A stretch of DNA of 64,000 nucleotides from SAR92 clade bacterium H921 (GTDB lineage: Bacteria; Pseudomonadota; Gammaproteobacteria; Pseudomonadales; Porticoccaceae). Positions 1,205 to 16,111 of this stretch are shown in pieces (the stretch's first letter is position 1; every line of letters begins with the position of its first letter). The notes below the pieces were generated by a model, which was not told the DNA's origin, searched no databases, and saw nothing but the letters and a program-made list of their open reading frames with translations. The translations under genes and the position numbers were made by a program. The stretch is taken from assembly GCA_025153755.1 (NCBI GenBank), contig JAOALD010000002.1, positions 248,001-312,000 on the forward strand, read 5' to 3'.

Positions 1205-1936
1205 CTAATCCATTTTAGAAACACTAAATCGCCAATCGTTTATCACCTGTGAGCGCACATCAGTCAGTTCGGGGACTGCACCCACAATGGCATTGTCTAT
1301 ACATACTAGATGCACACCATGATTAGAGGTAATGGGGCCAGTCCAACAGGGTAAATCACCATCTTTAACCAAGTTAAAAAGTTTTTGCCCAAAGTTGTTA
1401 CCGAATTCATTGTCGACTCTGGTAGAAGTTGCTGAAAAGTAGCGTTCGGCTAATGGGGATTGGTCGCCCTGTGGAATTACCCCCTGCTGTAAATAATGCT
1501 CCAGGGCCTGGCTGGCTTTTAATGTGGCCTGCCCACCATGTTTGGACCTAGAAAAGATGACCTGTTTAAAGCTAAACCGAGATGATTCACGATACTGGGA
1601 TTTGTGCTGCTCGTAAAAAGTAGCTAGTTCAGTCTCTGTTGGCTGTCTGGTGGTGGTGACGTGTTTGGTTAGGCCAGCCAGCTTAGCTTCCATAGACGAG
1701 GTATCCATAATGGCATCGATATCGGCGCCCATGCCTTCAGTGGCAACGCCCTCATCATTAAATAACCTGCTGTTAATACGATGTTGCAGGACGTCTATGT
1801 CGGGCAGATTTTGACGGTTAGCATCCCAGTCTTGATCATTTGGGGCGTCTACATCTAGGAGCAACCAATAGAGGCTTGAGCCAAGTACTGCTAATAGTAG
1901 TAGAACTGTGAAAAGACGCTGGGGGGGCTGGGACAT
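1205..1936 (-). CDS. membrane-anchored PpiC-type (parvulin) peptidyl-prolyl isomerase
   Basis: 243 residues. The N-terminus is an uncleaved signal anchor (residues about 8-26, hydrophobic, preceded by an Arg), placing the rest in the periplasm. The C-terminal half (about 105-235) looks like the rotamase domain: an FSFKQVIFSR strand, then DNEFGNNFGQKLFNLVKDGDLPCWTGPITSNHGVHLVCI, which matches the 'F..L..G...GPv.S.yG.HlV' signature of parvulins. It lies 13 bp after the M48 protease gene and is the last gene of the long minus-strand operon. A folding catalyst and a protease at the end suggest quality control of the exported parts encoded upstream. Similar parvulins are also found as stand-alone genes, so its link to the operon is an inference. 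Confidence 0.8.
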   Translation of the reverse strand: MSQPPQRLFTVLLLLAVLGSSLYWLLLDVDAPNDQDWDANRQNLPDIDVLQHRINSRLFNDEGVATEGMGADIDAIMDTSSMEAKLAGLTKHVTTTRQPTETELATFYEQHKSQYRESSRFSFKQVIFSRSKHGGQATLKASQALEHYLQQGVIPQGDQSPLAERYFSATSTRVDNEFGNNFGQKLFNLVKDGDLPCWTGPITSNHGVHLVCIDNAIVGAVPELTDVRSQVINDWRFSVSKMD

Positions 1937-1949
1937 ATTAATTGGCTCG

Positions 1950-3470
1950 CTACTGTTTAAATATCTTAATCCAGTCTCCGGCCTTGGGCTCGCCGCTGGG
2001 ATAGTGGCCGTTGATTATACGCAGATCTTCGCGATCGACTGCGTTGAGATTAAGGGCCTTGTTTAGCTTGTCAAAGGTGGTAGCGTTGGTGGCTTTGACA
2101 TAGTGCACCGTCTTGGGCTTTTGTCCGGCAATTTCGCGGCTAGAGATAGGACGAAAGGTTTTTATGGAGGCTACGAATTGTTTGTCGATATCAGCGAAGG
2201 TAGCTGCTGAGGTTTGGGTATCTGTGGCACCTGTTTGGTCAGAGTCTTTATTGTCAGCTAATGCTGCTGTAGTTGATGGGTCTGGTTGGGTAATTTCGCC
2301 GCTGAAGATATAGGCATTAAGCTTGTAATAGATCACGGCTATACGGCTATCAGGACCATCTTCACCACCGGGCAAAATGCCGGTAAATCCCTTAAGCCGA
2401 GCTGGGGCTATGGCTTTACCATCCTTTAATTGTGACACCTTCAAGTAGTTGTAAAGATATTCTTCTGGATTTTGAGAGGTGCGCGGCATAGCACGCATTT
2501 TTAAGACAGCAGTTTTATTCTCTGGTGTGGCGCTGGCGAGGGAAGGGCTTGGATTGGGGTTTTGTACCCAGCCTTTGGGAAAGTCGAAGCGGACTCTCAG
2601 GCTCATATTTGAGAAGCGTTCAGACTTTTTTTCTTTGGCCAGAAAGTTTTCACCCCAGATTAATCCATCGGTTAATTGACGGTAGCGACTGGCCCCGTTG
2701 TCGCGAGTTTCACTGGACTTTATGGCATTGGCTTTAGTGACAACTGTGCGCAGGCGACTGTCGTTGCGCGGGTGACTAGAAAAAATACCATGATAGGTCT
2801 GCTTGGACGCGCCCTTGGCTTTGGCGCGATCTTTTTGCAAGGTTTCATAGTCTTTCATAATCGATAGCATGCTGATCATTTCGTTGGGCGCATAACCGAG
2901 TTTGGCCATATATTCTGCGCCAGCTTCATCGGCTTCTAGTTCGTTGCGGCGGCCATGACCGCGAATAAGAGAATTAGCATAGGCCATTCCGGCCTCATAG
3001 ACCTCGTTACTGCCCGACAGCACGGCGGCTATGGTTGATAGTATCTGCGCGCCGGTAGCCTGAGCCTCTTGGCCGGTGACATGGTCGCGGGTTATATGGC
3101 CGACCTCATGAGCCAGCACCGAGACCAACTGTGCTTCATTGCTAACATAGTTTAGAAGGCCGCGGTTGACGTAGATATAATTGTCTCTGGTGGCAAATGC
3201 ATTGAGGTCGGGCGAGTCGAGTAGTGTAAAGGTAAATTCTTCGCCGGCCATTTCAGACACAGCAATAATTTCGTTACCCAGCTTTTTAATATAGGCATCT
3301 AGTTTTGGGTCATCATAGATGTCGGTGCCTTCCAGTACCTCTTTATAAATATCGGCACCGCTGACTGCGCTCCATGCCGTTGGATTACAAAGTACCAGGG
3401 TGCTGGCAAAAAGCATTGATCCTAGACTGAGACGCATAAAGGACATGGTTGTAGACCTATTGTTCAGCAT
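1950..3470 (-). CDS. periplasmic M48 metalloprotease with C-terminal LysM-like domain
   Basis: 506 residues. A signal peptide is visible at about 9-35 (ends AWSA). The M48 catalytic motif HEVGH is at 121-125, and the third zinc ligand is in NELEADEAG at about 176-184, the arrangement found in BepA/LoiP-type outer-membrane quality-control proteases. After a linker rich in Asp, Thr and Ala (about 395-420), residues about 450-506 (VHYVKATNATTFDKL..LRIINGHYPSGEPKAGDWIKIF) resemble a LysM domain for peptidoglycan binding, a known M48-LysM architecture. The longest start overlaps the upstream lipoprotein gene by 14 bp; a second ATG at 3446 would begin directly before the signal peptide and is equally likely. 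Confidence 0.88.
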   Translation of the reverse strand: MLNNRSTTMSFMRLSLGSMLFASTLVLCNPTAWSAVSGADIYKEVLEGTDIYDDPKLDAYIKKLGNEIIAVSEMAGEEFTFTLLDSPDLNAFATRDNYIYVNRGLLNYVSNEAQLVSVLAHEVGHITRDHVTGQEAQATGAQILSTIAAVLSGSNEVYEAGMAYANSLIRGHGRRNELEADEAGAEYMAKLGYAPNEMISMLSIMKDYETLQKDRAKAKGASKQTYHGIFSSHPRNDSRLRTVVTKANAIKSSETRDNGASRYRQLTDGLIWGENFLAKEKKSERFSNMSLRVRFDFPKGWVQNPNPSPSLASATPENKTAVLKMRAMPRTSQNPEEYLYNYLKVSQLKDGKAIAPARLKGFTGILPGGEDGPDSRIAVIYYKLNAYIFSGEITQPDPSTTAALADNKDSDQTGATDTQTSAATFADIDKQFVASIKTFRPISSREIAGQKPKTVHYVKATNATTFDKLNKALNLNAVDREDLRIINGHYPSGEPKAGDWIKIFKQ

Positions 3471-4131
3471 TGGACTGCACGGTGAAAAAGCCTTTTAGCT
3501 GATTGCCAAGACTTGCACAGGCATCACTCTTTACCGGCGTTAAAAATGGAATAGGTGCTACCGCGCCAATCAAATAAGAGGTGCCTTCGGAGTCAACTCT
3601 CAGACGGCCTTTTTCGGTGAGGTCCTGTAGATCCCAAACAATAGCTTCGTATACCGATAGTTTGTCCCATTGGGCAAAGCCGAAGCAACCGCCGCCTCCG
3701 GGGCCTATAGCACAGCTCATAGAGCCACCAGAATCCAGTGTCTCTGTGGAGCCGTCAAGCCACACCAGATAGCGTATAGAGAGCTTGTTAACCTCGTCTT
3801 TTATACTACCGTCTTGCATCAGTCGTTTAAGTCGCAGCAAGCCCTTGGGTGCTGTGCGCGGCTCAAACCATGGGTAGATAGCATCGATAAATTCTTGCTC
3901 GGGAAGTACTCTAATATCGCCACCCTTCATTTTCTCGCCCACGCAGCTAATAAACTCACGGTCTGTTTCATAGTGACCAGCATCTCTGCGGCCCAACAGA
4001 ACGATCCGGTCATCCTCGTTAAGAGCAATAGCCTCACCTGTGGGTCGATACTCGTCAATGGTAGTGGTCGCTGAGCAACCAGCGATAATAATCGTGGTAA
4101 GTAACAGTAAAAGTAGCCTAGAAAGTTTCAT
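3457..4131 (-). CDS. lipoprotein of unknown family
   Basis: 224 residues. A type II signal peptide ends in the lipobox TIIIAGC (Cys19), so it should be a lipid-anchored envelope protein. No catalytic motif is recognised. Visible features are four or more Cys residues in the mature part (two flank a Gly-rich stretch, SCAIGPGGGGCFG, at about 137-150) and a VWLDGS/VWDLQD pair typical of beta-rich proteins. It overlaps the preceding lipoprotein gene by ATGA and the following protease gene by 14 bp, so it is translationally coupled to both. I infer an outer-membrane or periplasmic accessory role in the operon; function unknown. Confidence 0.7.
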   Translation of the reverse strand: MKLSRLLLLLLTTIIIAGCSATTTIDEYRPTGEAIALNEDDRIVLLGRRDAGHYETDREFISCVGEKMKGGDIRVLPEQEFIDAIYPWFEPRTAPKGLLRLKRLMQDGSIKDEVNKLSIRYLVWLDGSTETLDSGGSMSCAIGPGGGGCFGFAQWDKLSVYEAIVWDLQDLTEKGRLRVDSEGTSYLIGAVAPIPFLTPVKSDACASLGNQLKGFFTVQSNAEQ

Positions 4132-4763
4132 GGTGACACCTCCCTAATATTGGCCTGCCTAGCCTTGCGCCGCTCTTCGATAGCCCAATTGTTGACCGTC
4201 GGAATACGGTAAAAGTCCAGCATTAATTTAGCGCCAGCATCGCGCAGAGCAATAATTGCAGCCTCTCCGATAGCCGCACTCTTGGATGCCATAAAGGCAT
4301 CTGGGGTTTTGCCATAGGCGGGCATAAACCAGCTGTCTATCGTATCACCATCTGTCGTTTCTAGATCGAGGTTGTATTTTATCCATACTTCAAAAACGTT
4401 GAGATAGTTGTCTGAGGGTACGGAGACCTGCACTTCTCGAATCGAGGGGATAATCACCATGGCCCTATCTAGGGTAATTTCTTCTCTACTGGCAACAAAT
4501 TCTAAGTTACTAAATAAACCGGCAAAGGCATTGCGCAATAGTCGTACCTGAGCTGAGCCAATATCTATTTCTGTTTTTTCATTGGGTCGAGCCACATAGT
4601 TAGAGAAACTGGGCTCAAAAACAATTGCCGCACTCAGCGGTTTTGGTTTTGCTAATACCTGAGGAAAGTCATTGGTCAGTTGTACCGAGGCAGAGGAACT
4701 ACAGCCCGACAATACAATAAGACTTAAAACTGTGGCGAACATTTTCATTTTTATTGTAAACAT
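4128..4763 (-). CDS. lipoprotein of unknown family
   Basis: 211 residues with a lipobox LSLIVLSGC (Cys at about 21) followed by Ser residues, as in an exported lipoprotein. The mature part is a mix of beta strands and helices (SAAIVFEPSFSNYV, VRLLRNAFAGLFSNLEFV, MVIIPSIREVQVSVP). This recalls the general pattern of small periplasmic lipoproteins that bind an envelope partner such as LptE or the transport auxiliary lipoproteins, but I cannot assign a family. Start: the first ATG has GGGTA about 9 bases upstream. It follows the second VWA gene by 13 bp and overlaps the next lipoprotein by ATGA. Confidence 0.68.
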   Translation of the reverse strand: MFTIKMKMFATVLSLIVLSGCSSSASVQLTNDFPQVLAKPKPLSAAIVFEPSFSNYVARPNEKTEIDIGSAQVRLLRNAFAGLFSNLEFVASREEITLDRAMVIIPSIREVQVSVPSDNYLNVFEVWIKYNLDLETTDGDTIDSWFMPAYGKTPDAFMASKSAAIGEAAIIALRDAGAKLMLDFYRIPTVNNWAIEERRKARQANIREVSP

Positions 4764-4776
4764 AATTTATTACCCT

Positions 4777-5766
4777 TTAATTGAGGCCGTTTAAGCCGAT
4801 AAAGGTTCCCCCGTTGTTGTAGCTAAGTTCGCGCATTAGCGCTGCAAATTTGATCGCCGATGCACTGGGAGTGCCCCCGGGTGGGAAATGAACCGGAAAG
4901 CCAATGGCGTGAATACGCACTAGGCGCTCAGTTGAACGGTTGGCTTTATTAAGTTTATCTACCGCATTAACCACATTGCGTATTGAACGCCCCTGATAGT
5001 CATCACCAAGAGTATAAATACTGATCTTGCGTCCCGGTTTATAAAACGTCTGGATTGCGGTGTTGATACCTTCTACTGGACTAGAATTACTGAACGGCGC
5101 CCAGGTCGCCAGTTTAGTGATAATGTTTTTACGCGTTTGTGGACTATCGGCAATCCACTGTTTGCGCTGATTGTTAAACATGTATTGGCCCATATCATTG
5201 AGCACCTGAATGCCTTTAACCTCTGGATAGATATCTAAAATATTGAGCATCTCTTTTTTGACTTTCTCCCAGGCGGCGACCTGCATGCTTCCGGAGGTAT
5301 CAATGACAAAAATAATATAATCACTGTCGGCAGGAATCCCGCCAACTAGCTGATTGTTCTGTTCAAATTCAGGCCCAAGTAAACGCTCCATCTCCTCTGA
5401 GAGCACCTGTAGGACAAGCTGTAACTGTTCTTTTTCCCGAGACTGTGACTGTGATAACTGGCTAGATTGTTTAGCAACACTGGCAAGTTTTGCTTTCAGT
5501 CGCGCCACACGTTCGGTTAATTCCGACAGCTGTTGTTTACGAGATTTTAAACGCTCATCCAGCACCACTGATTCGCCACGTATCTCAAATAGGCGCTCCT
5601 GATAGTCTTTTACTGAGCCCATTAATTGATTCTCGGCCTCTTCTAAAGCGGAGGGGTCGCCGACCCGCGCAATAACCAATAGCAATACAATAGCGCCAAA
5701 ACCACAGCTAATGACGTCCAAAAAGGAGATGCTCGCTTCTTGTAGTTCGCGGCGCTGCTTTCTCAT
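4777..5766 (-). CDS. membrane-anchored VWA protein 2 with ExbD/MotB-like stem
   Basis: 329 residues from the ATG at 5766, preferred over an upstream ATG at 5823 because it gives an ATGA overlap with VWA protein 1 and a normal basic N-terminus (MRKQRR). One TM helix at about 13-33 opens with FLDVISCGFGA; Asp17 sits at the start of the helix, the place of the proton-carrying Asp in ExbD/TolR (LIDV/LLDV). A periplasmic coiled coil follows at about 40-130 (heptads of Leu, Glu, Lys, Gln). A VWA domain at about 147-329 has the MIDAS motif DTSGS at 156-160 after a hydrophobic strand (YIIFVI). Topology N-in, VWA in the periplasm. It shares the FLD[VI]..CGFGA core with the neighbouring VWA protein, so the two are paralogues and may form the dimeric stem of a TolQ-type motor. 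Confidence 0.8.
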   Translation of the reverse strand: MRKQRRELQEASISFLDVISCGFGAIVLLLVIARVGDPSALEEAENQLMGSVKDYQERLFEIRGESVVLDERLKSRKQQLSELTERVARLKAKLASVAKQSSQLSQSQSREKEQLQLVLQVLSEEMERLLGPEFEQNNQLVGGIPADSDYIIFVIDTSGSMQVAAWEKVKKEMLNILDIYPEVKGIQVLNDMGQYMFNNQRKQWIADSPQTRKNIITKLATWAPFSNSSPVEGINTAIQTFYKPGRKISIYTLGDDYQGRSIRNVVNAVDKLNKANRSTERLVRIHAIGFPVHFPPGGTPSASAIKFAALMRELSYNNGGTFIGLNGLN

Positions 5767-6818
5767 GGCCAGTCTCTCGATGGTGCGATAAAGGCGCCAT
5801 TGGTATCCAATGCGGTCTGCCAAAATAACGCAGCGGCTTCGGGATCACCTTCCATGGGAAATAAAATAGTGTTGAGAGGTACACCGCGAGGGAATTCTTT
5901 GACGGCGGCTAAAAAGTGTTTGCGCCGTTGTTGACCAGTCACCATATATTTTCGCGGTGGGTTTTTACCCTGTGTCGGCAGGCCATCGGTCAGTAAAAAT
6001 ACATTGTCTGGCCGGTTTTCAAAATCTGCGATAGCGCCGAAGCCATTGGTCAAGCTAGTACCGGAGCCTGGAGAATATTCCCTAAGCCCTGCTATGGCAT
6101 CTTCCATGGCCAGAGAGTCGGCGGCATCAAGCCATTCGCCTTCAGTATCTTCGATAGCCGCCTGGGCCTTGGTATTAAAGATATAAATTTGAAAGCGGCT
6201 ACTAGCCGGCAGCTGAGCGACCAGCCATTCGACGGTACGCAGGGTCCACTGCCATTTTGGCGACTGTTGCTTCTGTTGATCATTCATATTGCGGCGACGC
6301 AATGCATTGACCACTGTATCGGCGAGCATGCTGGCGGAGCCATCGACTAAAATCAGTACCCGTTCACCTCCTAGTTTCAGGCCGGTAAGGTATTGGCGGT
6401 TACCATCACCGAGAAACTCGCGGACCTTATCGCCGAATTCAACTTCCTCCATCTGAGCGGTTTCATCTTCGAGCTGTTCGACTTGGCGGCGCAGTTTGTC
6501 TAGATCATTGGGGTCTGCTTGAATACTTTCTTCAGTTTCTTGCAGATCGGTAAGGACACGATCGGAAAGACCCTGAGCCTCGACTAATTCTGAGGTGATT
6601 TGGTCGAGGCTATTTAGCAATTGAGTTTTTTCGGCCTCGGCCTGCCGAATATCCATCTGCAGTAATTCAACTTCCGCAGACAGCCGTACATCTGGGGTTT
6701 GGATCTCGGTGGCATTGTGACGAAGAATTAAAAATAGCAGGGTAACTGCGCCAAAGCCACAGGCCATAATATCCAAAAAGGATAAGCTAAAGGCTATATT
6801 GCGGCGCTTTTTAGGCAT
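5763..6818 (-). CDS. membrane-anchored VWA protein 1 with ExbD/MotB-like stem
   Basis: 351 residues. A basic N-terminus (MPKKRR) precedes a single TM at about 13-32 beginning SFLDIMACGFGA, with Asp16 in the ExbD/TolR-like position. Residues about 43-128 form a long, acidic coiled coil. The VWA domain runs from about 152 to the end: MIDAS DGSAS at 159-163 after RVLILV, a Thr in the SGTSLTNG loop near 254, and LLTDG at 276-280 supplying the third metal-site Asp. All classic MIDAS positions are therefore present, so metal-dependent ligand binding is plausible. The gene overlaps the upstream actin-like gene by 8 bp and the downstream VWA gene by ATGA, giving a tightly coupled trio. Function unknown; the motor interpretation is inference. 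Confidence 0.82.
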   Translation of the reverse strand: MPKKRRNIAFSLSFLDIMACGFGAVTLLFLILRHNATEIQTPDVRLSAEVELLQMDIRQAEAEKTQLLNSLDQITSELVEAQGLSDRVLTDLQETEESIQADPNDLDKLRRQVEQLEDETAQMEEVEFGDKVREFLGDGNRQYLTGLKLGGERVLILVDGSASMLADTVVNALRRRNMNDQQKQQSPKWQWTLRTVEWLVAQLPASSRFQIYIFNTKAQAAIEDTEGEWLDAADSLAMEDAIAGLREYSPGSGTSLTNGFGAIADFENRPDNVFLLTDGLPTQGKNPPRKYMVTGQQRRKHFLAAVKEFPRGVPLNTILFPMEGDPEAAALFWQTALDTNGAFIAPSRDWP

Positions 6819-8079
6819 TGCTCACCTCGATCAATGTGAGGCTGTGGCCAGCAATCATAATCTCACTGCCCGGTTCGCACTGATTGGATATATTGCCATC
6901 GATGGCTGTTGACTGATGTATTACCCGCACTTCTTGGTTTTCGATCACAGTGACAACATCGGCTCTATTATTGATGCCTTTGGTGATTATTAGGCCGCTG
7001 TCCGCAATAAAAATACTCAGGGGGCGATTAAGAGGCCATGCGTAATTTTTATACAGCAAATGGGTTGCACAACGTTGTTTGGGCGGTGCTTTTTTATTTT
7101 TTTCGTTGGCGGTAGTTAAACGAGTAATTCGATGCAATGTGCTACTACTGTCGACTATTTGCTGTTCAGCTACCAGGCAATTGTCGACGGCTGCAGTCTT
7201 TGCCATTACCTTAGATCTGGAAAATCTCGGAAGCAGGGCTGGTAGTAGTCTGGCGCTGTGGGCAAAGCTAAGCTGAGCACTGGGATATTTTGCAATGATG
7301 GCATCCAGGCCAGCTAGCCGCTGTTCAAAAATTTTTCTGATGTCGTTGTTGCGCAACGTCACTGGCAGTTCCCCGCGGGGAGAGGGCAGGCTGACCGAAA
7401 TCTCAGTTTCCCAGTTTAGCTGTAGTAACCATTTCGGTAGGTTGTCATAGATAGCCTGTTCGCCCTCTGAGGTATGGAGTGGGTCATGGCGGTAGTCAGC
7501 GATTAAGCGATCACTGATATGCCGAGACACTCCGTTATACAGATGCATAGTACCTAGATCTGGTATCACTTCCTGAGCGCTAACCCTGGTCGCATCAGCG
7601 GTATTTTTAATCAGACTGACTACCGATTGCTGGAGCTGTAGGTCGACTAAAAGAGTTGGTTGTTCTACCTGCAGACCGATAGCCAAGGCACTGTCTATAA
7701 CGCCATCCACTTGTACCGGAATGGCTTGGGCCAACCCTAGTATCAATGCCAGTTGGTCATCGGTGAAACAGCCAGGTACGGCCAGAATAAGATTACTCGG
7801 TGAACCGACCTTATCGAGCATATGCTTGATTTGGCTATAGGCTATATCGCCATGATGGCGGGCCCACTGTTGTTTTTTTGGCAGTGGTAGCTGATTGAGT
7901 TGCCGCCAATATTGATTGTAGCTCGTTTGGGGTTTTAGCCAGGCTGTCGCTCGAGCGTTATCGCCGCTTTCAATTCCAGTGGCCGTTAGCTGGGCGAAGC
8001 CGGGTTCAGTGAAGGACTGACCGTCCTGAGATTGAATCACCAAGGCTTGGTCGTTTAATTCCAAGATGGCCAGAGTCAT
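6811..8079 (-). CDS. degenerate actin/Hsp70-like protein with FHA-like C-terminus
   Basis: 422 residues, no signal peptide or TM, so cytoplasmic. The first half follows the Hsp70/actin order of elements: an initial strand LAILELNDQALVIQ, a strand and helix LILAVPGCFTDDQLALILGLAQ (compare the 'VPA.F...QR.A...A' of Hsp70), VDGVIDSALAIGL in the place of the second helix, then TLLVDLQLQQSVVSLI in the place of the phosphate-2 loop. The Gly-rich GGGT of active ATPases is replaced by LQLQ, so ATP hydrolysis is doubtful. The last 75 residues (PLSIFIADSGLIITKG...PGSEIMIAGHSLTLIEV) resemble the beta-sandwich end of FHA domains, without a clear phosphothreonine site. It lies 3 bp after the TolQ-like gene and overlaps VWA 1. 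A cytoplasmic adaptor for the channel is one guess. The family assignment is by pattern only. Confidence 0.55.
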   Translation of the reverse strand: MTLAILELNDQALVIQSQDGQSFTEPGFAQLTATGIESGDNARATAWLKPQTSYNQYWRQLNQLPLPKKQQWARHHGDIAYSQIKHMLDKVGSPSNLILAVPGCFTDDQLALILGLAQAIPVQVDGVIDSALAIGLQVEQPTLLVDLQLQQSVVSLIKNTADATRVSAQEVIPDLGTMHLYNGVSRHISDRLIADYRHDPLHTSEGEQAIYDNLPKWLLQLNWETEISVSLPSPRGELPVTLRNNDIRKIFEQRLAGLDAIIAKYPSAQLSFAHSARLLPALLPRFSRSKVMAKTAAVDNCLVAEQQIVDSSSTLHRITRLTTANEKNKKAPPKQRCATHLLYKNYAWPLNRPLSIFIADSGLIITKGINNRADVVTVIENQEVRVIHQSTAIDGNISNQCEPGSEIMIAGHSLTLIEVSNA

Positions 8080-8082
8080 GGG

Positions 8083-8889
8083 TTACTTCGCTTTTAAAAA
8101 ACGCAGTAAATTATTCTCACAGTAGGACTGTGAGTCGAGCACCAGTCGCTCCTGAGAGAGCTGTAGCTGGTGCATAAAGAACATTACTACCATGCTGATT
8201 AACAGGGCGATAAAAGTAGAGTTAAAGGCAACGCCTAGGCTGCTGGTCACTCCGGCAATATTGCCAGCAATGGCTTCGTGGGCCTGACCCAAAGCAGCGC
8301 CAATACCCCGCACTGTACCTATAAAGCCTATCGATGGAATTGCCCAGGTAATGTAGCGCACCATAGATAACTCGGAATCGAGGCGATCATTTTCAGTATC
8401 ACAGACACTGCCGACCGCTTCGGTAGCAAATTGCACACTTTCGGTAACTTGAAATCTGGTAAGTGCAGTGTGTAGCGCCCTTGGCAGCAGATAGCTGCGC
8501 TGTTCTTCAGGGAGTGCTTGCAGTGGTCTGGTCAGCTGGGAGGCATCATCGGGAAGTACTCTGGAGCCTTCGGCTATGGACACTAGGGTATGGCTTAGCA
8601 TACGTTGTTCGCGGATAGTGGTGCGGCTTTTATAGCCCATAATTGCCAGCGACCAGAACATGAGGATAAAGCAGGCCTCCTGTTCAAGGTCTTTAATGAC
8701 TATAAAGAATGAGCGCGGTACCTGATATTCTTCCCCAGCGGCGACCATTTCTGCGTGCTGGCGAATAGTGCTCTCGGCATTGGGACGAACCACGGTAACA
8801 AAGATGGTGTGAACAATTATGATGGCCAGCAATAGGGCTATCAGCTGGAAAAACATCTCATTACTGGCGCGGTTGGTTGAAGTATTCAT
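8083..8889 (-). CDS. MotA/TolQ/ExbB-type proton channel protein
   Basis: 268 residues. TM segments at about 13-34 and 70-88 and a closely spaced pair at about 181-203 and 216-238. The latter two carry the family signature: AIPSIGFIGTVRGIGAAL (compare GLLGTVWGI in ExbB) and GVTSSLGVAFNSTFIALLISM, with Thr/Ser lining positions for proton passage. Members form pentamers around two copies of a single-TM partner (ExbD, TolR, MotB) and turn proton motive force into rotation. No exbD/tolR gene is present here; the two VWA proteins encoded just downstream have stems of that type and are the natural partners. A good RBS (AGGA, 8 bases before ATG) supports the start. Confidence 0.88.
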   Translation of the reverse strand: MNTSTNRASNEMFFQLIALLLAIIIVHTIFVTVVRPNAESTIRQHAEMVAAGEEYQVPRSFFIVIKDLEQEACFILMFWSLAIMGYKSRTTIREQRMLSHTLVSIAEGSRVLPDDASQLTRPLQALPEEQRSYLLPRALHTALTRFQVTESVQFATEAVGSVCDTENDRLDSELSMVRYITWAIPSIGFIGTVRGIGAALGQAHEAIAGNIAGVTSSLGVAFNSTFIALLISMVVMFFMHQLQLSQERLVLDSQSYCENNLLRFLKAK

Positions 8890-8914
8890 AGTCTGGTCCT
8901 GTTACTCAATGATT

Positions 8915-9127
8915 TTAAATATCTGCAGGTAGGGGCACGGCAAAGTCCTCAGATATTTCCTCGCTGGGTTTAAAGTCGCGGTCCTTGGTTTTGTCTTCAA
9001 TGCTATCTTGTTTTGGCTGCTCATTTTCGACTGCTGAGTCCTCATCGGTCGCAGGCTTCGGATCTATAGATTCCTGAGCTAAAAGCTGTGTGGATAAAAG
9101 CATTAGGATTATTATCAATACTCTCAT
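8915..9127 (-). CDS. small exported acidic protein
   Basis: 70 residues. A signal peptide of about 17 residues ends in LLAQ. The mature peptide of about 50 residues is rich in Asp, Glu, Lys and Pro and has no Cys, so it is probably unstructured in the periplasm. AGGAG lies 7 bases before the ATG, within the end of the PEGA-FGE gene, and the genes overlap by ATGA. It sits directly before the TolQ-like gene. No family recognised; it could be a linker or regulatory subunit of the complex. Confidence 0.6.
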   Translation of the reverse strand: MRVLIIILMLLSTQLLAQESIDPKPATDEDSAVENEQPKQDSIEDKTKDRDFKPSEEISEDFAVPLPADI

Positions 9128-11187
9128 GGTTTGGCTCCTGGGCTATCTACGTAACGGGCTATTCTAAAGCCTACATCCAGACGCCCATCGACACCAGCAT
9201 CGCGATAACTTAGCCGCAGCTCGGTACGAGAGCCCAGTGCCCAACTGGCCCCACGAATCACATATCGAGTGCCTGTTGTTGGTCCAGTTGGATCCTGTAT
9301 TGCATCACCGCGGCGAGGGCGTACGTCATAGTAATCATTTACCCACTCTGCGACGTTGCCACTCATATTATAAAGGCCCTTATTGTTGGGTTTAAAACTG
9401 CCCACAGGGGCAGAAACTGGTGATTTGTCATTGTAATTGGCGATGGTAAAGCTCAGCAATCGCGATGCGCTTTGGTCGGCGTAGTTATCGGTAATCTCCA
9501 CTGGCGGGTAGAGCCCATTAACCCAGGGAAAGGTCGTGCTTTTACTATTGGCATCGATTTTTGCTGCCCAGGCCCATTCGGCTTCTGTGGGCAGACGATA
9601 ACCATGTGAATCCCAGTTAAAGCCATTGATCATACCCGCCTCTAGCCGGTAAAACGGCGGTAGACCATCGCGCTTACTCAGCCAGTTGCAGAAGCCAGCT
9701 GCGTCCTCCCAGCTTACTTTGGCGACGGGCTGCAGGTCCATATCTAGTGACTTGCCTCTGATCGCAGAGCTGCTATGACTGGCCTTCCAGCGGCGAAATT
9801 CGGCATTGCTTATTTCTTTAGTAGCCAGATAAAAAGGCCTTTGCAAGCTTACGCTACGTTCTGCCTCATTGGCTCTGCGTCCAGGTTGGCGGCGCGGTGC
9901 ACCCATAGTAAAACTGTGGTCAGGGCGAAATAATTTAAGTGATGAGCCAACCGAGCTTTTGACCATTGGCGGACGAGAGGCCCAATAGGCCTGCTCTACG
10001 GTGAGTAAATTGACACTGAGCGCCTGCTCATGGCCTGGCCTTGGCGTAACGGTTAATATTTTTGTCTCGTAACCTTCTTTTTGAACGCTAATATTATGAG
10101 GTTTAGCGATTAGTGCCAGTATTCGGCTACCAGTTCCCTGATTGCGGTTGTCGACTAAAATTTGCGCATCGATTGGATTAATTGTTAGAGCGATTGTGCC
10201 AATATTCGGCTCTAGGCTAACTGCTAGGGTCGAGACTTTTTCTGGCTTTAACCTGACCGCTTGGATAGATTTTAAATAGCCTTCTAAAAATAACTCAATG
10301 CGATGCTTGCTAAAGGGGGCTAGGGCCACATCCAATGGTGTGGAGCCGATAAATTTATTATTGATGGTAACGCTGGCGCCGCTCGGCGAGCTACTGAGTT
10401 GCAGCGTACCGTCGGCGACAATTAATTTAATGGGTGATTGTTCGCTTCTGGTCCCGGCCTTAGTCCACACCCGCTGTTCATGAGTTTTATAGCCGACAAG
10501 TTCAATTTTAAGCTCGCTGCCGGTTTCCAGTACCTCGGTGGTGAGCGGAGTCTGCCCGACTAGGCGTTCATCGATATAGAGATTGGCACCGGCTGGCACA
10601 GTGGTAAATTGCATCTGCCCCCAGGCTGGCACGAGGGTAACATCGAGAGACTGGGTTTTACCCAGACCATCTATATTAATTTCTTGTCGCAATGGGAAAT
10701 AGCGATATTTGTTAAATTCGAGCTGATGCAGGCCTCGACTAATACCTTCAACAGTGCCCGGCACTGTGCCTGCTGGTTGGTTATCTATGCTAATTTTAAT
10801 GTCGTCTAACGTTGCAGTTACTGCCAGATTGCCCGGTAGTGGCTGGAGTTCTAGTTTTACGTCCTGGGTAGGGGCATCGCTGACGTTAATGGTTTCAAGT
10901 AATGGATAATAGCCTGGGGCGCTAGCTTTTATATCGTAGTCTCCAGCCAGAAGCAGGTAATTGTCGCCAATATTAAAAGATAGCCCGCTTATTTTAATGT
11001 CTGCCGCTGGCGGCGCTGTTTGAAAGATGACTGCACGGGCAATAAATAGGTAGGTCATGATAATAATCCCAATAGCTGTCAGAACTCCCAGGCTAATCAT
11101 ACCGGCAGATAGGGCAGTACCCCCTCTGGTATCGTTGCCGTCCATGGGGGTGAAGTCAGTTGCTAACAGTGGATTCTTATCAGACAT
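9124..11187 (-). CDS. membrane-anchored PEGA-repeat protein with Cys-less FGE-sulfatase (SUMF1-like) domain
   Basis: 687 residues. A TM helix at about 29-55 leaves a short cytoplasmic N-terminus and a large periplasmic part. Four or five beta-rich repeats of PEGA type follow, at about 62-116, 119-187, 190-257, 260-327 and 330-396; the clearest have GQTPL and GSTPL after an INNKFIG/IDERLVG strand and a GY in the last strand. Residues about 415-682 form a SUMF1/FGE-sulfatase domain: FTMGAP, YRLPTEAEWAWAA (530-542), NMSGNVAEWVNDYY (607-620), YVIRGASW (642-649) and DVGFRIAR. The catalytic Cys pair of true formylglycine-generating enzymes is absent after RGASW, so it is probably a binding or scaffold domain, as in many bacterial relatives. 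The gene heads the block coupled by ATGA to the small acidic protein and the TolQ-like gene. Confidence 0.85.
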   Translation of the reverse strand: MSDKNPLLATDFTPMDGNDTRGGTALSAGMISLGVLTAIGIIIMTYLFIARAVIFQTAPPAADIKISGLSFNIGDNYLLLAGDYDIKASAPGYYPLLETINVSDAPTQDVKLELQPLPGNLAVTATLDDIKISIDNQPAGTVPGTVEGISRGLHQLEFNKYRYFPLRQEINIDGLGKTQSLDVTLVPAWGQMQFTTVPAGANLYIDERLVGQTPLTTEVLETGSELKIELVGYKTHEQRVWTKAGTRSEQSPIKLIVADGTLQLSSSPSGASVTINNKFIGSTPLDVALAPFSKHRIELFLEGYLKSIQAVRLKPEKVSTLAVSLEPNIGTIALTINPIDAQILVDNRNQGTGSRILALIAKPHNISVQKEGYETKILTVTPRPGHEQALSVNLLTVEQAYWASRPPMVKSSVGSSLKLFRPDHSFTMGAPRRQPGRRANEAERSVSLQRPFYLATKEISNAEFRRWKASHSSSAIRGKSLDMDLQPVAKVSWEDAAGFCNWLSKRDGLPPFYRLEAGMINGFNWDSHGYRLPTEAEWAWAAKIDANSKSTTFPWVNGLYPPVEITDNYADQSASRLLSFTIANYNDKSPVSAPVGSFKPNNKGLYNMSGNVAEWVNDYYDVRPRRGDAIQDPTGPTTGTRYVIRGASWALGSRTELRLSYRDAGVDGRLDVGFRIARYVDSPGAKP

Positions 11188-11406
11188 AGTATTGTAGATA
11201 TGCTTTTATTATTGGTTATCAATCTAGTACCACCTCAATTTTAGTCTAAGCGGTGCAAAACTGTGGGTTAAATTTTTGAACTCTGTCTAGCATTGTTGGC
11301 TAGAGGCTTTTATGCATCGTTCAATTATTTCTAACAAATACAACATATTACTAGATGTACTCTGCGTCCACGGTTTCAGACCAGTCATACCATTGGGTGG
11401 CAAAGA
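11188..11406. other. 219-bp gap inside the long minus-strand operon
   Basis: This is the only gap above 60 bp between 1937 and 16111. No ORF with protein-like composition is seen and no clear terminator; it may contain an internal promoter for the PEGA-FGE to ppiC block, but I could not identify a convincing -35/-10 pair. Confidence 0.35.
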
Positions 11407-12840
11407 TTATATGGCCTGGCTACAACTCACCAATATGGGTTCTGGCCTCGTTTCTCCACTGATGATGAATTCGACTCTTACATCTCGAAAGCCAACGCGC
11501 TTACCGGCAGCAATATAGCGCCCGGGCTTCAGCAGTATCGAGGTCTGTTCAAAGACGCCTAATTTCTTCACTCGAAATACAGTGACATCGGTGACACCAT
11601 CTGATCGTAGTATCACATCAACTGGGGTTTGCGACTGGCGCAAAACTTTGTCTAGGTCAGCAATCTGTTGCCTCAGTACTGGCCCAGGATTGGCAATACC
11701 AGCTGCGTCTTTAAGTAAGTCTTGGGCTCTGTTATAGGTTGCATTTACGGCTAATTTAAGCGGATCTGAGAGCATTTCCCTAATTTGGCTATCTAATTTG
11801 GCGCGTACCTTGACGGTGATGGATCGAACCTTGGCTGTGGTTAGGGAGGGATCTGTGGAGAGTAGAGACTGATAGATATCTAAGGCTTGTTGCCACTGTT
11901 CAGATATTTCATGGTCGCCGGCTCGCTGAATCTGCCGGGTTACAGTTAACTGTGATTGACGAGTACTTACCTGAGATAGAGCCTGAATAACAGAGGGGTG
12001 ATTGGTATAGATGGCGCCAGCCCTATCAAAGGCTTCAGTGGCTGCGATAAAGTCATCATTGTCCAGGGCACGATAGCCGAGGCTCATGGCACTGCGAAAA
12101 CGCTTTTCAATAATGGCCTGTTTGGTTGAATCCAGTGCTGCCGCAACCAGGCGATGTTGACCATCTAGGCGCAATGCTCGTCGATAGGTGTCTGCAGCGG
12201 CATTGAGCTTGTTGTTGGCCAAGAGCTCGTCGGCCGCCTGTAGTAGCTTCACGACCTCGGGCAGAGTATTGGCGCGTAATTCGAGTTGCTGGGACTGGTT
12301 ATTTTCGGGTGCTATTGCCATGGCGAGGCTGGCGGCGGCGCTGGCAACTGGAATATCTGTTGAAGTGGCATTTTCAATGGCGGTTAGACCATCTGCAAGT
12401 GCCTTGGTTAGTGTGGTCTGACCAAGCTTTTCAATACTATTTAATTGGCTTAGTGATTGTTGAAAACTTGTCAGTGACTCAAGGTATTCGCCATAACCGT
12501 ACTGCTCGTCTCCCTGAGCAATTAATGCTTTGGCCTGACGAAATTCGAATTCTGCCCAGCGTTCAACAGTCTGGTTTTCTAGACGGTCTGTTACGGCAAT
12601 AATCTGTGCCAACGTAGTCTGAGAATCCTGCCGGTACTTAGTTTTTTCTGCTGCCGTTGAAGGGCTGACAATCGGTTTGGACACGGCTGTGATTGAGGCA
12701 CTGGGATCGGCTATCCAGGGTTCAGTGACCATTGCTGGCAACAGCAAGATAACAGCGGCAGCCAGGGCTAATAACAGGATGATAATAAGCTTTTGCTTAC
12801 CCCGTTGTTCTGATTGAGATGTGGGTGACTGATTATCCAT
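11407..12840 (-). CDS. membrane-anchored helical-repeat (TPR-like) protein
   Basis: 477 residues. A short Gln/Ser-rich cytoplasmic N-terminus, one TM at about 17-38 (LIIILLLALAAAVILLLP), then a long, almost fully helical periplasmic region rich in Ala, Gln and Leu. TPR-like pairs are visible, for example AADTYRRALRLDGQHRLVAAALDS (about 215-240), ALDNDDFIAATEAFDRAGAIYTNHPSVIQAL (about 256-287) and WQQALDIYQSLLSTDPSLTTA. The last 80 residues are beta-rich (VDVILRSDGVTDVTVFRVKKLG...LLKPGRYIAAGKRVGFRDVRVEF), ending like the small domains seen after TPRs in envelope assembly proteins. It lies 11 bp after the preceding exported protein gene. Probably a scaffold of the complex; family not recognised. 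Confidence 0.68.
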   Translation of the reverse strand: MDNQSPTSQSEQRGKQKLIIILLLALAAAVILLLPAMVTEPWIADPSASITAVSKPIVSPSTAAEKTKYRQDSQTTLAQIIAVTDRLENQTVERWAEFEFRQAKALIAQGDEQYGYGEYLESLTSFQQSLSQLNSIEKLGQTTLTKALADGLTAIENATSTDIPVASAAASLAMAIAPENNQSQQLELRANTLPEVVKLLQAADELLANNKLNAAADTYRRALRLDGQHRLVAAALDSTKQAIIEKRFRSAMSLGYRALDNDDFIAATEAFDRAGAIYTNHPSVIQALSQVSTRQSQLTVTRQIQRAGDHEISEQWQQALDIYQSLLSTDPSLTTAKVRSITVKVRAKLDSQIREMLSDPLKLAVNATYNRAQDLLKDAAGIANPGPVLRQQIADLDKVLRQSQTPVDVILRSDGVTDVTVFRVKKLGVFEQTSILLKPGRYIAAGKRVGFRDVRVEFIISGETRPEPILVSCSQAI

Positions 12841-12851
12841 AATGGTCGAAT

Positions 12852-14063
12852 TTATAGAGTGCCACGCTCCTGTTTATATATTTTCTGGAGTAGGGATTGC
12901 CACTGCTCATATTGTACCTCGACTGTGCCTGTGAGAGTTACTGTGCGGTCTTCAAGCTCTATGACCTGAGGGGCGATCTCGGCTTCTAAAGACGACCCCA
13001 TCTCTGCTACCGACTCGTTGTAAACGGCTGATTGCTGTTTCTTTTCGAGGCCAGATTTTACAATATAGCCACCGACCGCGGCGGTGGCGGTGCTGGCATC
13101 GCTAGCCATGCGAGTGTCAGCCTGAGAGCGACCATAGATGCCAGCTAAGATAGATCCTAGACCGGCAATAATTCGGCGATTGCCTTGGCTATTGAGTTGA
13201 CGTGCCTTTACCACTGAGTCGTGAGAGGCACGTCTAAAGTCCTGGTAGGCAAGATGCATCTGTTGCGAAAATCCATCGTAGTAATCTTGCATGGTATCTA
13301 TGTACAGGTAGTCGCGCTCGCGAATCTTGCGCACTCGCCGTAGAAGGCTGTCATTGTCTGCAGGCAGGCGCACAATAGCTAATGTGCCGTCGCGCTTTTC
13401 GGTGACGTACTCATCAAAGGCCTCGGGCGAGAAGCTTTTGGCAAAGCGCAGTTCAGATATAGTGCGCAGTTCTATAGCCTGGTTTTCGTTCAGCTTTTCA
13501 CGGTAGGCCAGGACATCATTAGCAATGCGCACAAATAAGTTCTCGAAAGGATCGCCCATGCTCTTTAAGCGGCGATCATAGGCGTATTTGCCAGTGGTAT
13601 GGCGGTACTTTTTACTGAACCATTTTTTACCACTTGTATCCGCAACCGTGATTTGCAAATTCATGGTTTCGCCATCGGACTGCAATATGATGCCGGTGAT
13701 GTAAACGTCCATAACAACATCTGTGCTTGGAATTACTCGAATGGCGCCCCAGGCGCCGCTCTTTTCCATTACTTTGGCTAATTGGTTAGAAAAGTAAATT
13801 GCCTCGGCGAAACGTACCTCGGGGAAAACAGTATCATCCTCATCGGTTAGGTATAAGCCGTCATTAAACGTAGCAATACCCACATCAACAAGAGCCGCCT
13901 CTGCCATCGGTGCAGATGGTGTATTTAAGGCTATAGCGGTCGAGGATGTTATCTTGTCTACGGCTGCCAGGGCTGGGGGCGATCCAAGTATGGTAGAGGC
14001 AAATAGCAGCGCAGCTAAAAAGGCCGCTGTACCCGAAGTTCGAATGCTCTGTGTCTTTTCCAT
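12852..14063 (-). CDS. exported protein of unknown family (operon component)
   Basis: 403 residues. A signal peptide at about 12-34 ends ALA. The first 120 mature residues (VDVGIATFNDGLYLTDEDDTVFPEVRFAEAIYFSNQLAKVMEKSGAWGAIRVIP...DVYITGIILQSDG) follow the strand-helix pattern of periplasmic lipoprotein-like domains that start with 'v.vl.f...' (CsgG/LptE-like in general shape only). The middle (about 230-285) is charged and helical, and a short Gly/Ala-rich segment (IIAGLGSILAGIYG) could insert in a membrane. It is 22 bp after the Ser/Gly-rich lipoprotein gene and 11 bp before the TM-helical repeat gene. I cannot assign a function. Confidence 0.65.
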   Translation of the reverse strand: MEKTQSIRTSGTAAFLAALLFASTILGSPPALAAVDKITSSTAIALNTPSAPMAEAALVDVGIATFNDGLYLTDEDDTVFPEVRFAEAIYFSNQLAKVMEKSGAWGAIRVIPSTDVVMDVYITGIILQSDGETMNLQITVADTSGKKWFSKKYRHTTGKYAYDRRLKSMGDPFENLFVRIANDVLAYREKLNENQAIELRTISELRFAKSFSPEAFDEYVTEKRDGTLAIVRLPADNDSLLRRVRKIRERDYLYIDTMQDYYDGFSQQMHLAYQDFRRASHDSVVKARQLNSQGNRRIIAGLGSILAGIYGRSQADTRMASDASTATAAVGGYIVKSGLEKKQQSAVYNESVAEMGSSLEAEIAPQVIELEDRTVTLTGTVEVQYEQWQSLLQKIYKQERGTL

Positions 14064-14085
14064 AATAGCTATTTTCTGGCCTGTG

Positions 14086-14850
14086 TTATTGATCTTTTAT
14101 TCGTCGATACTCATCCCAGAGTCGCTCCCTGAGGGCAGGATCTGTTTCCTTCATTGCTGCATCGCGTATTTGACGCAGAACAATATCGTCGCCCTGACCA
14201 TCCCCGATATCGTCTGGAACAGGTATCACCGCAGCATCTGCCTGTTGTTGTGCGCCGCCTCTGGAACCCGTGGTTTCTGATGCAGATGCGTTGGCGGCAC
14301 CTTCAGAGCCATCCTGTCCCTCAGGCCCATTTTGCGCGGCCTGTTCGATGGCTTCATTGCCCTGTTCTGGGGTGCCGCTATCGGCCTCCTCAAACAAAGG
14401 TTCATCACTGTTATCAGTAACTCTAGTTGACCCTCTTGGGCTGAGTATATCGATTTCATCAGAACCAGAGGATGAGCCACTTGACATGCTGTCATCAAAA
14501 CCCTCTAAAGAGGCATCCAGTTCGGCATCAAGACCCTCTACACTCTCTCCCTGCTGACCCTCACCCCCTGAGTCGCCACCACCGCTTTGCTGCTGATCTC
14601 CGTTGCTATCGCTGCTCGACGAGGCGCCGCCAGCAGGATCTGATGGAGCGCCTGGGGATGAAGGGGCCCCGCCCGTTGGGGGAGCAGGCATACCGCCACC
14701 TGACGAGCCAGATGAACCAGAGGGTACGGACTGTCCAGATGAACTCATTGGAGAGGGCATTTGGCAGGCTCCGAGCAATGATGCCAGCACAAGCACGGTG
14801 GCAAGCCTACCTAGTAAAGATTGCTCTGCAGTTGTATTTAGTGGCTCCAT
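14086..14850 (-). CDS. low-complexity Ser/Gly/Pro-rich lipoprotein
   Basis: 254 residues from the ATG at 14850; a longer start at 14883 would overlap the previous gene by 26 bp and lacks an RBS, whereas AAGGG precedes the chosen one. The lipobox LASLLGAC is at about residues 20-29. The mature protein is a long disordered tether: Ser/Gly/Pro runs, then Asp/Glu/Gln-rich stretches (about 75-215), and only the last 45 residues look folded (DDIVLRQIRDAAMKETDPALRERLWDEYRRIKDQ, helical). This fits a flexible lipoprotein carrying a C-terminal helical peptide across the periplasm. Repetitive composition makes family assignment unsafe. Confidence 0.62.
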   Translation of the reverse strand: MEPLNTTAEQSLLGRLATVLVLASLLGACQMPSPMSSSGQSVPSGSSGSSGGGMPAPPTGGAPSSPGAPSDPAGGASSSSDSNGDQQQSGGGDSGGEGQQGESVEGLDAELDASLEGFDDSMSSGSSSGSDEIDILSPRGSTRVTDNSDEPLFEEADSGTPEQGNEAIEQAAQNGPEGQDGSEGAANASASETTGSRGGAQQQADAAVIPVPDDIGDGQGDDIVLRQIRDAAMKETDPALRERLWDEYRRIKDQ

Positions 14851-14857
14851 AGCTGTT

Positions 14858-16111
14858 TTAACCCTTTGGTGTTGGTTGATCATACATCATGCTGAGAGAT
14901 GCCTCTGCGGCAAGCCCGTCGACTAACTTGGGCCGAAAACGTTTGTCGCGCAACTCTCTGCGCACATCGCGTAGCATTTTGTCAGTGAGCGCTTGAGGTG
15001 CGTTGGCAACCTCTATTTCGACCGGCACACCATAGGGCGATATAAGCATGGATAGTTCAAGTTGCGACTCTTTAGGGTCGCTCTTGTGCTGAACCTCTTT
15101 GTCCATATTAAAACTGATCATCCTGGGAGTGCTAAATAGTTCTGCTCGCGCCTGTTCTGGATTGCCTGCTGTTTCCAACACGTCAGATGCTAGTTGATAG
15201 GTCTCGGCTGCAGAGTGTCTTTGCCCAAAAATTAGATACCAGTCTCCCAGTTCGGCTATAGCTAATGCGTGATCGACTTCAGTACTGTCCGATTGCTCGA
15301 TCAAGGACTCAATAACTTTTTCTAATGCCTGTTTGCCACGTTGAAAGTGCAGATGAGAGGTGGTGGCATCGCGGCGACTTCCTGTCGAACCAGCCATAGA
15401 TATAGTCAGGCCAGATTCTGTAGGCTCTCCGTGCTGTTTAATATGGTTGGCAATAAAAAACTGTAAATAGCCTAGGCGACGATAACGATCCGGTGTCTGC
15501 GGATCATCCAACGGCATGCCTGTCGCGATAACGTCATAAATGCGAGCGGCAATACGTTCAGATATAACCAAATTGGAGTAACCTCCTTTCGGCGTTCGCT
15601 CTTTGTAACTGTCCATATACCAGTCTAGCAGCTGATCAAGGACAGGTAACATGCGCAAATCGTTTTCACCATATTCCTTGGCGTTGATGGCATAGAGATT
15701 ATCCAGCGCTTTTTGGGACTCCTCCCAATTACCTAGATCACTCTCTGTGTCGGCAATAGATACCAGATAGGGTGCTTGAGTAAGGCTATTGAGACCATAG
15801 TTCACCCGCTCAATTTGCATACCCTGCTGAAAGGCTCTTCGCGCATTTTGGTACTCTCGTTTTGTATGAAGTGATTTGCCAAGGCCTAGATACAGGTCCG
15901 CTAATTCAGTTGAGTAGGCGCTGTGCCCGGCTTCAATATCTTCTATAGCGTCCATATAGTCGGCTACTGGGTCTGAGATGAGTTCCTGTTCTGCGGCAGT
16001 TTGCGAGTAAGAAATCGGATTTACGGTTACTGCTACAAATAGTACCGAAGTTTTAATTATCCTATGTATTGAGGTTAATTCCTTTTTTAGTTGTTTGTTA
16101 TTGGCACGCAT
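14858..16111 (-). CDS. exported TPR protein with TonB-like C-terminal domain
   Basis: 417 residues, first gene of the long operon, with AGGAG 6 bases before the ATG. An N-terminal signal sequence (about 14-36) is followed by TPR-type helical pairs, for example ADLYLGLGKSLHTKREYQNARRAFQQGMQI (about 66-95), and ALAIAELGDWYLIFGQRHSAAETYQLASDVL (about 283-313). The last 90 residues (MISFNMD..., LELSMLISPYGVPVEIEVANAPQALTDKMLRDVRRELRDKRFRPKLVDG) have the strand-helix-strand pattern of the TonB C-terminal domain, including the 'G.v..v.v..s' strand and the FRP.L.DG end. TonB domains contact outer-membrane partners, so this may be the link from the TolQ-type engine to the outer membrane, or a stand-alone periplasmic TonB-like module. 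Confidence 0.72.
   Translation of the reverse strand: MRANNKQLKKELTSIHRIIKTSVLFVAVTVNPISYSQTAAEQELISDPVADYMDAIEDIEAGHSAYSTELADLYLGLGKSLHTKREYQNARRAFQQGMQIERVNYGLNSLTQAPYLVSIADTESDLGNWEESQKALDNLYAINAKEYGENDLRMLPVLDQLLDWYMDSYKERTPKGGYSNLVISERIAARIYDVIATGMPLDDPQTPDRYRRLGYLQFFIANHIKQHGEPTESGLTISMAGSTGSRRDATTSHLHFQRGKQALEKVIESLIEQSDSTEVDHALAIAELGDWYLIFGQRHSAAETYQLASDVLETAGNPEQARAELFSTPRMISFNMDKEVQHKSDPKESQLELSMLISPYGVPVEIEVANAPQALTDKMLRDVRRELRDKRFRPKLVDGLAAEASLSMMYDQPTPKG

Follow-up and report, generated by a model that had tools for sequence, protein, structure and literature searches.

Related motors and the locus considered here

To our knowledge, the proton-driven rotary motors with known outputs amount to a handful, i.e., the flagellum, Tol, Ton, the type IX secretion system (T9SS) with gliding, Agl-Glt and Zorya. 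In TolQR, ExbBD and MotAB a channel of the PF01618 family with a pair of pore threonines is combined with a partner that possesses a single transmembrane (TM) helix and an aspartate near the start of this helix. The present work concerns an operon of 14 minus-strand genes (positions 1205-16111) within a stretch of 64,000 nucleotides from SAR92 clade bacterium H921, a gammaproteobacterium of the SAR92/Porticoccaceae type (contig JAOALD010000002.1; the whole stretch is referred to as the window), which encodes a channel of this kind, pore threonines included, together with two VWA proteins possessing such a helix. Unlike the aforementioned systems, the window operon encodes no ExbD, TolR or MotB, as documented by profile searches, and its single-TM partners carry a coiled coil and a VWA head, with no homology of the helix detected by sequence comparison of this short segment.

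The closest described counterpart was predicted in June 2025 (Mol Biol Evol; PMC12204202), when vWA homologues tethered by a TM helix were reported as heterologous pairs of unknown function, located next to tolQ in the absence of tolR and exbD and occurring mostly in Proteobacteria; a conserved aspartate was described in their trans-pore helix (TPH) and AlphaFold 3 models were given for them in the TolQ pentamer (Fig. 4c,d of that report). The window system shares with this TPH-vWA/TolQ class the TolQ-like gene without tolR or exbD, the heterologous single-TM vWA pair, the trans-pore-helix aspartate and the conserved threonine ring, while no contradicting feature was identified and the SHLS motif is lacking from the window VWA helices. 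By these features it is assigned to the class; the 80 named loci kept do not include a record from Idiomarina, the genus of the proteins used in that report. As the class was predicted in that report, the core idea is not new, and the statement of a first-pass annotation of the window that no characterised system has this gene set holds insofar as the system is still uncharacterised, but not for its prediction in print. The text on the class deals with motor and vWA genes only, and the terms PEGA, formylglycine and Hsp70 do not occur in it; going beyond it are the full module, the Hsp70 nucleotide-binding-domain fold, the association of an F-x-P motif and a CsgG/PelC/TolB-N-like core domain, parts which as far as found were not described before.

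A further comparison is offered by the T9SS, where the GldLM/PorLM motor is combined with the PorKN (GldKN) ring and where PorK, possessing a Cys-less FGE fold, was reported to be a docking hub in a ring thought to be driven by the PorLM motor (PMC12421860). A motor of the proton-driven 5:2 type, for the window proposed, a long periplasmic stem and an adjacent Cys-less FGE-fold protein are common to both. In contrast, the window shows no match to GldL, GldM or GldN, and its FGE protein is anchored in the inner membrane and carries PEGA repeats, reaching 92 bits with the GldK model at a cut-off of 350.

The channel and its probable VWA partners

The best explanation for the operon as a whole is a trans-envelope machine driven by the proton motive force and possessing a VWA axle, which is considered likely; its motor core, consisting of the TolQ-like protein and the VWA pair, is considered highly probable. 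The channel protein (8083-8889) matched PF01618 with 49.5 bits (E 4.6e-13; curated cut-off 22.9), and its pore threonines were found to be invariant, Thr192 in 119 of 119 and Thr225 in 131 of 131 sequences. In both VWA1 (5763-6818) and VWA2 (4777-5766) the sequence FLD[VI]..CGFGA opens the single TM helix, and near the start of this putative trans-pore helix an invariant aspartate was identified (Asp16 of VWA1, 147/147; Asp17 of VWA2, or Asp36 in the longer open reading frame (ORF), 143/143), in agreement with the first-pass annotation, which had also described the channel and the missing exbD, tolR and motB genes correctly and had placed an aspartate at the ExbD/TolR position. A coiled-coil stem connects the helix to a VWA head whose DxSxS metal-site motif (metal-ion-dependent adhesion site, MIDAS) is intact in nearly all sequences of either protein (VWA1, D159/S161/S163; VWA2, DxSGS with D175/S177/S179 in ORF numbering). 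The median distance between the helix aspartate and the MIDAS aspartate is 149 residues for VWA1 and 140 residues for VWA2, from which, by helix geometry, a stem roughly 10 nm long or longer would result; the shaft of GldM measures 18 nm (PMC9389320). For VWA2, the start at ATG 5766 (329 aa) is probably to be preferred over TTG 5823, as it overlaps the stop codon of VWA1 (ATGA). Of 95 relatives, 49 possess VWA1, and VWA2 adjoins it in nearly all complete cases; the genomes of genus members without VWA1 are mostly either incomplete or reduced to 1.2-1.9 Mb.

The genome encoding the operon carries three ExbD genes, and its other TolQ-family genes mostly adjoin an ExbD or MotB of their own. One ExbD gene (C1:93178-93555) has no TolQ gene beside it; it is located between coaD and mutM and is conserved throughout the genus, also where the VWA operon is missing. 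Because of its presence in these operon-free relatives, it is not a dedicated partner of the operon channel. Among related loci no ExbD-type gene was found near the operon, the sole exception being a distant gene on the opposite strand in locus L125. In one relative (G305) the operon lacks TolQ and the VWA pair is kept (contig C5), with the TolQ orthologue residing on another contig (C39), where it stands alone beside a sirtuin-like gene with no ExbD as neighbour; channel and VWA pair are hence both kept in this genome though unlinked. The dedicated ExbD encoded elsewhere, which the first-pass annotation had considered, was consequently not seen. With an invariant helix aspartate and invariant pore threonines, a paired occurrence of VWA1 and VWA2, no adjacent ExbD and an orphan ExbD that occurs also in relatives without the operon, the sequence data support the suggestion, made already in that annotation, that the VWA pair serves as partner of the channel in place of ExbD/TolR. 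Elsewhere in the same genome (C1:152312-154371) a MotA-like gene adjoins two matches to the MotB plug, possibly representing a further paired motor.

Conservation and minimal core

A scan of named genomes revealed at least 552 related places, of which the 80 loci mentioned above were kept, coming from Porticoccaceae, Halieaceae, Microbulbifer, Cellvibrionaceae, Thalassomonas, Marinibactrum and others. In evenly drawn samples the operon was present in 31 of the 369 genomes that represented the class and in 15 of the 398 that represented the phylum, 12 of the latter 15 belonging to one family outside the class. Considering the 41 long loci, i.e., those with at least 9.5 kb on either side, all keep SGlipo, SP403, TM-TPR, PEGA-FGE, the small exported protein, TolQ, VWA1, VWA2 and lipoA (individual proteins are described below), so that the loss of synteny envisaged by the first-pass annotation was not observed; lipoB, the M48 protease and TPR-TonB are present in 40 each, the Hsp70-like gene in 39 and the parvulin in seven. 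The gene order is the same in Porticoccaceae, Halieaceae, Microbulbifer, Thalassomonas and others, and this synteny across families places the arrangement beyond chance. Distant lineages possess a shorter locus, SGlipo-SP403-TM-TPR-PEGA-FGE-TolQ-VWA1-VWA2, which is taken as the minimal core and does not include the genes for TPR-TonB, M48, lipoA, lipoB and parvulin. The system is widespread in marine bacteria, its gene set is fixed, and the idea of a VWA protein as axle can be tested cleanly on it. Knowing its genes, its minimal core and the F-x-P motif makes a published prediction without function testable part by part. In one genus member a second, divergent minimal copy (L045, G033:C24:1-8843) with SP403, TM-TPR, PEGA-FGE, TolQ, VWA1 and VWA2 was observed beside the full operon; neither the Hsp70-like gene nor the F-x-P motif is present in this copy.

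The PEGA-FGE protein, the Hsp70-like protein and the F-x-P motif

PEGA-FGE (9124-11187) consists of a cytoplasmic tail, one TM helix, PEGA repeats (E 2e-42) and an FGE fold (FGE-sulfatase, E 8.5e-38). Its description as a Cys-less FGE protein was confirmed as far as the catalytic pair is concerned, as no cysteine was found at these positions in any of the 103 relatives whose sequences cover them; one conserved cysteine, Cys500, is kept, however. The cytoplasmic protein encoded at 6811-8079 was annotated earlier as actin/FHA-like; its AlphaFold2 model (mean pLDDT 92.8) revealed the fold of the Hsp70 nucleotide-binding domain to be the closest one instead (DnaK, Z 28.2, 310 residues aligned), while its C-terminal beta domain is weakly FHA-like (FHA of Ki-67, E 0.08), which weakly favours an FHA domain over the beta part of the Hsp70 substrate-binding domain. 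Within an alignment of 55 sequences the Hsp70 phosphate motifs were found to be degenerate, GIDLGTT being replaced by LELND and DLGGGT by DLQLHQ, and owing to this replacement ATP hydrolysis by the protein is unlikely.

About 15 residues before its TM helix, the tail of PEGA-FGE carries the sequence [IL]x[PA]xxFxP (LLATDFTP in the window copy). Of the 80 loci that carry the Hsp70-like gene, 79 show an F/Y-x-P motif, against one of the 10 that lack the gene (p 1.4e-10 by Fisher's test, a value which overstates the case as the loci are not independent; rate in shuffled tails 0.17). The motif was not found in the tails of VWA1, VWA2 and TolQ but is shown by some TM-TPR tails. In type IV pili, PilM, a cytoplasmic protein with the ASKHA fold, holds a short peptide from the cytoplasmic tail of the single-TM protein PilN. 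The same peptide-holding arrangement is proposed for the window, though with a fold closer to Hsp70 and with a peptide differing from that of PilN; docking of the Hsp70-like protein onto the F-x-P peptide is, judged by this motif association, regarded as an evenly balanced possibility.

Putative scaffold, outer-membrane and peripheral proteins

TM-TPR (11407-12840) is a core protein anchored in the inner membrane by residues 13-44, with TPR repeats (TPR_14, E 2.6e-5) and a PEGA-like C-terminus. The exported core protein SP403 (12852-14063) was modelled by AlphaFold2 with a mean pLDDT of 84.9 and consists of a domain (residues 47-191) followed by long helices (239-362). Structure comparison of this domain gave PelC (Z 10.6), CsgG (Z 9.4), TolB-N (Z 8.9) and PqiC (Z 8.6), while Foldseek alone gave weak matches; the model suggests a CsgG/PelC/TolB-N-like domain that may form an outer-membrane ring. 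SP403 carries a lipobox in 36 of 47 relatives, whereas the window copy is without one. Sequence searches of Pfam and the PDB gave no usable match for SP403, lipoA and lipoB.

A further core protein, SGlipo (14086-14883), is a Ser/Gly-rich lipoprotein with a lipobox (Cys40) and looks disordered; its best-conserved part is the C-terminal DDIVxRQIREAAxxExDPxLREKLWxEYR, which is present even in the minimal core and likely is a binding peptide. Peripheral are lipoA (4128-4763; lipobox) and lipoB (3457-4131), whose residues C63, C140, C149 and C205 are invariant among 37 relatives; four conserved cysteines besides the lipidated one are unusual for an outer-membrane lipoprotein. The T9SS couples outer-membrane proteins to its track by disulfides (PMC12635249), and by this comparison a redox link via the lipoB cysteines may be worth a look. 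TPR-TonB (14858-16111), likewise peripheral, possesses a signal peptide and TPR repeats (TPR_12, E 1.2e-7) and had been annotated as TonB-like, which applies to 12 of 30 relatives, whose C-terminus matches TonB_C, but not to the window copy, where no such match was found. That TonB-like and lipoprotein parts could link the machine to the outer membrane, as assumed earlier, is plausible, although TPR-TonB, lipoA and lipoB lie outside the minimal core. The periplasmic M48 metalloprotease (1950-3470; PF01435, E 9.4e-33) is peripheral and retains HExxH in 82 of 82 sequences, the parvulin-type (PpiC) prolyl isomerase (1205-1936; Rotamase_2, E 3.4e-8) is accessory, and the small exported protein (8915-9127) shows a conserved tail, FKPSEEISEDFxVPxPxDI.

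Proposed mechanism and alternative explanations

That the operon products form one joint complex is considered distinctly likely. In the mechanism that we infer, five TolQ-like copies would form the channel, whose pore would be traversed by the aspartate-bearing helices of one VWA1 and one VWA2 (or of a dimer of either), replacing ExbD, TolR or MotB. Proton flow past the aspartate and the pore threonines would turn this axle relative to the pentamer, whereby the coiled-coil stems would hold the VWA heads out in the periplasm. Here, the heads would push the scaffold anchored in the inner membrane (PEGA-FGE and TM-TPR), which would pass the push on to a lipoprotein assembly around SP403 at the outer membrane. 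The Hsp70-like/FHA protein, which is probably catalytically dead, would dock from the cytoplasmic side on the F-x-P of PEGA-FGE and thereby connect the scaffold with the motor. Such a machine would most likely perform mechanical work at the outer membrane, for instance move or open a lipoprotein ring as in Tol-Pal or the T9SS, rather than drive surface motility, an assignment which is tentative. Held with similar reserve is the idea of a complete, undescribed class of proteobacterial machine, in which a 5:2 motor with a heterodimeric VWA axle would turn a hub of PEGA-FGE together with a lipoprotein ring at the outer membrane, with a dead Hsp70-like clamp on the F-x-P peptide, representing a counterpart of the T9SS/gliding drive built from other parts.

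Several findings weigh against this proposal. When the N-termini of the VWA proteins were compared with ExbD and MotB by hhalign, the scores equalled those of control TM segments, the segment being too short for a decision, so that the profile-profile link anticipated by the first-pass annotation did not materialise; likewise, a model of the ExbD helix only did not rank the VWA proteins high. As the profile comparisons remained at control level, the likeness of the VWA helix (a basic start followed by FLDV) to the ExbD consensus PLIDV is read as a pattern, perhaps a convergent one. Heterodimerisation of VWA1 and VWA2 we infer from their pairing alone, the CsgG/TolB-like fold is common to many outer-membrane lipoproteins besides several rings and is no proof of a ring of SP403, and the loci lacking the Hsp70-like gene come from some three lineages, of which one (L105) carries the F-x-P motif and two do not. 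Experiments on these genes, in whatever organism, were not found in the literature. A hidden Markov model of full-length ExbD, which ranked VWA2 proteins high, was dropped, as the inspected matches lay outside the helix and the helix-only model did not repeat the result.

The missing profile link would also fit a TolQ-like channel pairing with an ExbD/TolR encoded elsewhere, the VWA proteins being TonB/TolA-like transducers bound at the side or an unrelated scaffold. Three ExbD genes, one unpaired, are available for this, and a separate side-binding vWA family with an SHLS motif was predicted elsewhere (PMC12204202); however, the unpaired ExbD is shared with operon-free relatives, no ExbD adjoins the TolQ that lies on a separate contig in G305, and the window helices possess an invariant aspartate and no SHLS motif, rendering this explanation improbable. 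An export function, with the motor driving secretion of protein or polymer via an outer-membrane pore of SP403 and with M48 and parvulin handling the cargo, is unlikely: SP403 resembles CsgG and PelC, PEGA-FGE resembles the fold of a T9SS ring protein (PMC12421860) and the protease motif is intact, but folds of the SP403 type occur also in TolB, PqiC and LptE, none of which is a pore, M48 and parvulin are absent from minimal loci, and neither cargo nor beta-barrel nor polymer-synthesis genes recur beside the operon. Clustering of flanking ORFs yielded mainly antisense shadows and a few ordinary genes, and the lack of a recurrent adhesin-like gene speaks against a gliding motor like Agl-Glt or GldLM, as does the presence of the operon in many planktonic marine lineages which are not known to be gliders. 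Despite the 5:2-type motor with paired partner genes, AglRQS also having two MotB-like genes (PMC9389320), and an FGE fold as in GldK/GldJ, gliding is thus regarded as very improbable. A Zorya-like defence against phages was rejected and is given next to no weight, since apart from a weak similarity of the TolQ-like protein to ZorA no match to ZorB, ZorC, ZorD or ZorE was found, the other parts that were tested gave nothing convincing in the defence library, and one fixed gene order is maintained across whole families.

Layout of the operon and its surroundings

Neighbouring genes of the operon overlap or lie at most 25 bp apart, with the exception of one gap of 219 bp (11188-11406), to which the earlier statement that nearly all genes overlap or lie within 30 bp does not extend. 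Promoter scans of the operon start and of this gap did not find a promoter-like site. The source genome has a size of 2.57 Mb, its nearest named relatives being Porticoccaceae and SAR92-cluster genomes, and the operon is flanked by ordinary genes, namely trpA (203-970) on one side and genes for a CoA transferase (16330), a class-V aminotransferase (17567) and an FAD-dependent protein (18657) on the other.

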